A stretch of 38,073 nt of DNA from Rhodospirillales bacterium. GTDB taxonomy: Bacteria; Pseudomonadota; Gammaproteobacteria; Steroidobacterales; JAHEKG01. The stretch is taken from contig JAHEKG010000006.1 in NCBI GenBank assembly GCA_024638475.1, forward strand, positions 1 through 38,073, written 5' to 3'. How positions within the stretch are numbered: position 1 is the first letter of the stretch; every line of letters begins with the position of its first letter. Made by a program: the position numbers and the translations under genes. Of this stretch, positions 16,137 to 17,273 are shown one piece after another. The notes beneath the pieces are model-generated. The model was not told where the DNA came from. It ran no database searches and saw only the letters and a list, made by a program, of their open reading frames with translations.

Positions 16137-16185
16137 AGTGGCCCCAGTTTACACGCAATCCAGATGTCAGCGAACGTTGTGACTA

Positions 16186-16270
16186 GGGTAACTGTCCGTA
16201 CACCTCTCTCATGGGATGGCTCCCTGCGGTCCGCTTTATTCCCATGAGAGAGGTGTACGGACAGTTACCC
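16186..16270 (+). repeat. 85-bp palindromic element, copy 1: 31-bp perfect inverted arms around a 23-nt loop
   Basis: Left arm 16186-16216 gggtaactgtccgtacacctctctcatggga; loop 16217-16239 tggctccctgcggtccgctttat; right arm 16240-16270 is the exact reverse complement of the left arm. Confidence 0.97.
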
Positions 16271-16338
16271 CAGGATCGTTACGGCTAGACAGCGCCGTCA
16301 GCCAACGAGCCTATCGTCGAAGACGCCGCTTGTTAACT

Positions 16339-16423
16339 GCGCCTGGCTATGGTTACCCGTTTGGAGGGAATAAAGCGGACCGCAGGGAGCCATCCCTCCA
16401 AACGGGTAACCATAGCCAGGCGC
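16339..16423 (-). repeat. 85-bp palindromic element, copy 2 (inverted core): 31-bp perfect arms around the same 23-nt loop
   Basis: Left arm 16339-16369 gcgcctggctatggttacccgtttggaggga; loop 16370-16392 ataaagcggaccgcagggagcca, the exact reverse complement of the copy 1 loop; right arm 16393-16423 is the exact reverse complement of the left arm. Confidence 0.97.
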
Positions 16424-16472
16424 GGCGGGACAATCGCACAGGGGCGTGCGATCCGGTCGGAACTATTACCGG

Positions 16473-17273
16473 TTAGGCGCCGTCCATCTGGGCTTTGCCC
16501 ATGCGCAGCGCCAGCATGCGCTCATACTCTTCCTCGCCGAAAATCGGCACCACCAAGGCGTTCATCGGGTCTAGCCGATAACCCAACTCGCGAACGCGGT
16601 AGTCGTAATCGCGCAACGCGCCGCGCTCGGATTCCGGCACCGGCTCTGCTTCATCGAGCCAACCGAACCAGCGATTAATGAACCCTTCGAGATACGCCTC
16701 GCAGATATCAATGTTTTGCTCTTCCAGTTCGGCAAACATGCTAATGCACACCGGCGACAACAGACCGCGCAGGTAGGTGCCGTGACTGACGGACCAGGTG
16801 AAATTCGGATTGCTGCGGAAAGCGAGATGGTCCTCGTTGACTGGCTCGTAGTAACGATTGAGATAATCCAGGTCCACGCGAATATCCGCTCGTGGCGTAT
16901 AGTCGGCGTAGAAGAAAAGCTTGGGCACGGTGCCGAAGATCACGGTCAAATGAGGCACGCGAGTTTGCTGGCTCAAGAACACCGTGGCGTTGATGTCCAA
17001 GATCGATGCCTTGCGATTGCCGATCCATGAATTGACCAGCCAGTCCACCTCAGGTCCCGAATAACCGGCAAACGATCCTTCCATCCGACCATCCGGTGCC
17101 GCGTAATAATCCCTGCCCTCGCAAGCTGGATGCAGCTCGACGTCGAAACGCCCCTTGACTCGCTCAACGATGCCCTTTTGTATCCCCCACAGGCGCTCCC
17201 AGGCCTGGCTCACATCAACGTTGGGATTCTCCGCCAGAAACTCGTGGATGGTCTTAGTTTCGGTGACTGCCAT
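16473..17273 (-). CDS. Red chlorophyll catabolite reductase (RCCR)-like protein
   Basis: Compared from memory with plant RCCR (ACD2): 'VDWLVNSWIG...ILDINATVFLSQQTRVPHLTVIF...LFFYADYTPRADIRVDLDYLNRYYE' parallels 'IDFVIGSWIH...LNITSISGFLNSSTKAPNFVVEL...LVLILDLPHRKDLVLNPDYLKEYYQ'. 'YLRGLLSPVCISM' parallels 'FVRSAFSPTASML'. C-terminal 'RDYDYRVRELGYRLDPMNALVVPIFGEEEYERML' also parallels plant RCCR. Confidence 0.75.
   Translation of the reverse strand: MAVTETKTIHEFLAENPNVDVSQAWERLWGIQKGIVERVKGRFDVELHPACEGRDYYAAPDGRMEGSFAGYSGPEVDWLVNSWIGNRKASILDINATVFLSQQTRVPHLTVIFGTVPKLFFYADYTPRADIRVDLDYLNRYYEPVNEDHLAFRSNPNFTWSVSHGTYLRGLLSPVCISMFAELEEQNIDICEAYLEGFINRWFGWLDEAEPVPESERGALRDYDYRVRELGYRLDPMNALVVPIFGEEEYERMLALRMGKAQMDGA

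Follow-up and report, generated by a model that had tools for sequence, protein, structure and literature searches.

REPs and similar dispersed palindromes are common in bacteria, and both how they move and how the pairing of their stems is kept up are unsettled. REP/BIME sequences are dispersed pairs of related hairpins, inverted to each other and separated by a spacer that varies. They lie near stop codons, where the neighbouring genes are either convergent or in tandem, and fold in a strand-specific manner; placement between convergent genes is usual for REPs (PMC3733652). The REPIN is a non-autonomous replicating unit of two inverted palindromes, with singlets also present (Bertels and Rainey 2011, PMC3116915), and the double-hairpin elements (DHE) of fungal mitochondria are pairs of neighbouring hairpins, mostly intergenic and thought to be mobile (Paquin et al.; PMC10085805, PMC4618339). 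Perfect stems can furthermore be created and maintained by template switching, in which one arm is copied from the other and multi-base compensatory changes result (PMC8794818).

Here we describe a locus sharing these traits of REP/BIME sequences, of the REPIN and of fungal DHE, located in a stretch of gammaproteobacterial DNA of 38,073 nucleotides (hereafter the window). An open-access literature search for this repeat in Woeseiaceae found nothing. Our analyses give good support to a real and widespread double-hairpin repeat, present in several marine bacteria related to Woeseiaceae, with an unusual mode of evolution, in which the loop is fixed and the stem rewritten, and to one inverted copy of flanking DNA. 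We further consider it reasonably probable that the pair of hairpins in the window represents a single copy of a mobile, non-autonomous dispersed element, similar to BIMEs and REPINs, whose two facing hairpins with their near-fixed 23-nt loop are recognised as folded single-stranded DNA and are subject to template switching.

Architecture of the window copy

The window copy comprises two hairpins, A (16186..16270) and B (16339..16423), each with 31-bp perfect arms around a 23-nt loop (ATAAAGCGGACCGCAGGGAGCCA in A when read on the minus strand), in agreement with a first-pass annotation of the sequence, which had described two 85-bp palindromes of this geometry. The underlying inverted repeats span 16183-16216/16240-16273 (34 nt, 97%, perfect over the inner 31 nt, with 23 nt between the arms) and 16339-16369/16393-16423 (31 nt, 100%, again with 23 nt between the arms). 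Both hairpins carry the same 31-bp core, GGGATGGCTCCCTGCGGTCCGCTTTATTCCC, for which the chance expectation in the shuffled window is 0; the identity noted in that annotation is borne out, with the qualification that the core is inverted between the hairpins, being on the plus strand in A (16213-16243) and on the minus strand in B (16366-16396). Each core consists of 4 bp of stem top on either side of a conserved 23-nt loop, located at 16217..16239 on the plus strand in A (TGGCTCCCTKCGGTCCGCTTTAT) and at 16370..16392 on the minus strand in B, and near-invariant across species. The bias of mismatches described below points to the minus strand as the folding strand of A and to the plus strand as that of B, and folding z-scores of the window hairpins range from -11 to -13 on every strand, for DNA and RNA alike.

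The hairpins are separated by a spacer (16271..16338) that is poorly conserved in the window's genome. In an alignment of 24 complete copies from that genome, conserved edge motifs lie ~8-15 nt outside each stem, placing the whole element at 16178..16440 with approximate ends. The copy sits between two minus-strand genes, one encoding a methyltransferase (PF13649; 14997..16136, start codon ~50 bp from hairpin A) and the other an RCC-reductase-like protein (16473..17273, stop codon ~50 bp from hairpin B). The latter product is predicted to belong to the red chlorophyll catabolite reductase family (PF06405, E 5e-12), here in a bacterial genome. An Rfam scan returned only a chance-level match (E 0.99; 22.7 bits, where the gathering score is 90), and no terminator-like site was found at this copy.

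One element with two hairpin types

The genome-wide core search called for by the first-pass annotation recovered 64 copies in the 3.46-Mb assembly at up to 3 mismatches, against 0 for the reversed control. Extracted copies fall into two stem types, A with TCAT and B with TTGGA adjoining the core, and most cores form one A and one B hairpin facing each other 110-155 bp apart. Since 24 complete pairs align as a single A-spacer-B element with conserved edges, the two window palindromes are halves of one element rather than products of separate events, with A and B being distinct hairpin types and for that reason different in their stems. Judged from these alignments, the stem sequence is inherited with the element, there being only the stem families A and B in the genome, both of them conserved and with a divergence that takes the form of paired changes.

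These results alter several proposals made from the window by itself. The 27-bp stems, for which local copying of flanking DNA had been one proposal, belong instead to the two conserved families, and the molecular ruler invoked to set their length is not needed. Pairing outside the core, thought to be constant at 27 bp, is uninterrupted over anything from <10 to 33 bp across the genome's copies, with a stem region of ~26-31 bp being paired in nearly all of them if single mismatches are allowed.

Three solo cores are flanked by one A arm and one B arm and so lack a stem (L037:357-441, L050:378-462 and L055:367-451), and are apparent deletion derivatives of the A/B pair. Around 367-451 of L055, a double-hairpin copy is broken up by an unrelated AAATGGGGACATTCCCC repeat. 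One wide pair (C70, 814 bp) was considered as a larger copy enclosing an enzyme gene and rejected, the gene between its two single hairpins being seemingly an ordinary thioredoxin-like gene.

Distribution, gain and loss

An exact scan of GTDB returned 58 stretches, all labelled Woeseia, Woeseiaceae or unnamed Gammaproteobacteria. Within the order, the element was present in 38 of 396 sampled genomes in a patchy distribution, and copy numbers among relatives reached 56 in genome G098 and 36 in both G099 and G100. The loop TGGCTCCCTKCGGTCCGCTTTAT persists from one species to the next, and the stems differ in sequence yet stay paired, such that the conserved loop within differing stems, first read from two hairpins, holds across species; in some species the order of the hairpins is reversed. 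A loop variant, TGACTCCCTTCGGTCCGTTTTAT, occurs in G112 (C12 and C25), where positions 3 and 18 have changed together with a possible intra-loop pair kept; this joint change, in one variant, suggests a short pair inside the loop.

Viral, phage or plasmid carriage of the element was rejected, as IMG/VR and the phage and plasmid collections gave zero matches. A conserved gene neighbourhood, which would have indicated vertical inheritance, was likewise set aside, L019/L070 being the sole convincing case of a site shared between species.

At L106, four hairpins occupy a 656-bp gap between genes that are 92 bp apart in G098, a member of the same genus. In G071, whole elements are 90-95% identical over ~285-315 bp, and several of G253, G120, G158, G164 and G321 have empty sites where G071 has copies; the nearest empty sites are only ~70-80% identical, at which distance neither an exact junction nor a target-site duplication is readable. 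Empty orthologous sites in sister species imply that copies have been gained or lost, and such gain and loss, together with recent amplification, make it most likely, as far as sequence comparison can tell, that the element is mobile. Amplification of the whole element and the empty sites would fit a doublet that may move as a unit, a REPIN trait. Single hairpins are also common. At L268 (G071:C46), hairpin B is absent and the flanking element sequence is retained.

Paired evolution of the stems

In fixed-length alignments of the hairpins from the window's genome, standard pairs account for 97.8% of cells in A (31 sequences) and 97.4% in B (25 sequences), and 25 of 31 pairs in A and 26 of 31 in B have changed on both sides. 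Covariation is 0.586 (A) and 0.543 (B), compared with 0.187 and 0.156 after shuffling and at most 0.12 in slid versions, which amounts to ~3 times the shuffled mean and nearly 5 times the best slid version, with the proviso that copies within one genome are kin and that mismatch and covariation cells are hence not independent events. Over the inner pairs 17-27, A and B together show 96 double changes against 8 imperfect cells. Among 14 copies of hairpin A in G071 there are 8 arm versions; pairing is perfect over 26-27 bp in every copy, and some versions carry an extra base in both arms. Hairpin B is imperfect in those same copies, with many mismatches kept. Double changes with few intermediates, together with matched insertions, are as arm-to-arm copying predicts (PMC8794818), and it is possible that perfect stems result from strong selection alone.

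Inverted copies of flanking DNA

In G071, flanks outside the terminal repeats of several copies are inverted copies of each other. They extend over 45 bp at both L263 and, with mismatches, L271, over 40 bp at L272 and over 31 bp at L262; except at L272, part of each length belongs to the element's own terminal repeat. With the element trimmed off, 5 of 11 G071 copies have a longest exact flank match (39, 33, 16, 14 and 13) above 12, the highest value in comparisons across elements. Significant inverted outer flanks were found in G071 only, and none in the window's own genome.

The direction of copying can be read at L263/L136, where the right arm includes the final codons of the gene to its right (plus strand, TCAAACCACCCGTCG). 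In the empty counterparts of this site in G164, G321 and G158, the end of the right-hand gene is present once, with no second arm. The C-termini read from these codons (IRRVV in G071 and G164, IRRVG in G321) show the right arm to be native, and it follows that the far side of the element received an inverted copy of this gene end. No other site identifies the native arm clearly, and the finding comes from one metagenome assembly. At L272 relatives have neither arm, and at L271 and L262 they are too divergent or not syntenic, so that the native arm cannot be told. Inverted copying of flank, as first proposed, is thus supported for unique DNA around G071 copies and is not supported for the 27-bp stems; the one-arm empty site named as its test was found at the outer edge of L263/L136 and not at the 27-bp stems. 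We infer template switching to be the cause of the inverted flank duplication.

A tentative alternative, to which we attach some weight, would make hairpin-templated copying the very means by which a mobile element spreads. The fixed 23-nt loop would be read by a factor on one folded DNA strand; in the course of insertion or replication, one arm would be copied from the other and unique host DNA could be carried across the element in inverted form, with the stem being rewritten and the loop kept.

Folding strand and gene context

Mismatches within the stems differ in kind according to the strand on which they are read. On the strand bearing the loop ATAAAGCGGACCGMAGGGAGCCA, G.T outnumbers A.C by 42 to 5 and G.G outnumbers C.C by 17 to 2 in the window's genome. 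The same reading in ten other groups gives 97 to 9 and 47 to 0, respectively, and ~100 to 3 for G.A against C.T, biases whose significance is overstated by binomial values, given the kinship of the copies and the origin of most G.A and G.G cells in a single species. The direction of G.T/A.C is the same in nine groups and 1 to 1 in the tenth, and A and B behave alike. Because of the inversion between A and B, it is opposite strands that fold in the two hairpins. On this ground, the idea that the two loops, which are complementary on one strand, pair with each other within a single transcript was dropped.

With regard to gene context, 28 of 37 assignable loci in G098 are flanked by convergent genes, both stops often being no more than ~100 bp away, and convergent genes likewise flank 53 of 82 loci in a mixed, partly redundant set; these counts rest on author-picked ORFs, and the background count is too small for a test. 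This placement, combined with covariation and a wobble bias typical of RNA, could reflect a structured RNA at mRNA 3' ends, serving as a bidirectional stabiliser or terminator for convergent genes, with structure selected in the transcript. We regard such a role as unlikely, since convergent location is typical of REPs too (PMC3733652), the folding strands of A and B are opposite in each pair, the hairpin order is reversed between species, orthologous sites are empty and the window copy is without a terminator-like site. Moreover, among the small number of single copies flanked by tandem genes, folding strand and sense strand do not consistently coincide. These observations favour folded single-stranded DNA over an mRNA element, the informative copies being few.

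Candidate mobilising enzymes

The element might also represent an unrecognised family of true REP/BIME sequences moved by RAYT, a Y1 tyrosine transposase. Its inverted palindrome pairs in extragenic space near gene ends are those expected of REP/BIME sequences, its strand-specific hairpins and empty sites are in keeping with them, and an asymmetric A-rich internal loop on the folding strand (ATAAA/CA) recalls the AA-GC bulge of the E. coli REP (PMC8266576). The hairpins are, however, 85 bp long compared with the 20-40 bp of a REP palindrome, and by eye their flanks contain no GTAG or CGTC tag and no tetranucleotide common to the species. In addition, none of the 18 Y1 loci examined has the element core nearby, and a Y1 search of G098, with its 56 copies, gave no match. 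As judged by neighbourhood, RAYT/Y1 mobilisation was not found, the one Y1 gene of the window's genome adjoining a different repeat, and we consider this explanation quite improbable; on the two points of unit length and a linked Y1 gene, the element is not filed as a REP. The Y1_Tnp gene in question (L146:1205-1985, G000:C186), the only one of that genome, is bordered on both sides by AAATGGGGACATTCCCCTTTT, an arrangement that recalls TIR-flanked Y1 genes (PMC3733652).

Discussion

We return to a dispersed, non-autonomous double-hairpin element as the preferred reading. Each hairpin would be recognised as folded single-stranded DNA through its loop, and a putative enzyme supplied in trans would spread the element, which may be tolerated mostly behind gene ends. 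Template switching between the arms during replication may help to keep the stems perfect, and could sometimes extend the inverted repeat into the flank, giving rise to the inverted flank copies in G071.

Two remaining explanations fare considerably worse. Template switching in an old palindrome could have yielded the perfect stems as a neutral by-product devoid of function and mobility, and both the capacity of template switching to create and maintain such stems (PMC8794818) and the double changes with few intermediates would fit; the conservation of the loop across species, the strand-specific mismatch bias, the recent amplification and the empty sites nevertheless render this very improbable. 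Assembly or amplification chimeras are the least credible source, for although the named genomes carrying the element are metagenome assemblies and short inverted duplications can be artefacts, the loop and architecture recur in many independent assemblies from different projects, the arms diverge in a compensatory manner and several inverted flanks carry mismatches.

The double-hairpin family separates two problems, in that the loop appears to be recognised and the stem to be rewritten. It provides natural replicates in large number, together with sister species in which sites are empty; selection on folding has left a strand-resolved footprint, and an inverted copy of host DNA is documented. 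The copying of one arm from the other by template switching consequently becomes testable in bacteria, and a putative loop-reading factor is implied.

In comparison with known systems, the element departs from REP/BIME sequences in its much longer stems, in having the loop as its conserved part rather than the stem or, as judged by eye, a GTAG/CGTC tag, and in that a linked RAYT was not found. Similarly, it differs from the REPIN (PMC3116915) in that its palindromes each fold alone into a 31-bp stem, with species-specific stems, a fixed loop and no RAYT linkage. Fungal DHE (PMC10085805, PMC4618339) are organellar and GC-rich, and are likened to the element by structure and not by sequence. With MITEs it shares a short, non-coding, recently amplified sequence and, in G071, terminal inverted repeats formed by copy ends with TGACNTCGNCGNACT in inverted orientation, which are not clear in the window's genome; it differs in that no parent transposon was found for it, and a target-site duplication is not readable at the distance of the nearest empty sites. 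Template-switch hairpins have the same perfect stems and multi-base compensatory changes arising through arm-from-arm copying (PMC8794818), but there the process is one of mutation in ordinary RNA genes, whereas here it would act in a dispersed element with flank copying around it. Finally, the attC sites of integrons conserve the stem ends and vary the loop, and the element described here is the reverse, with a fixed loop and a variable stem.
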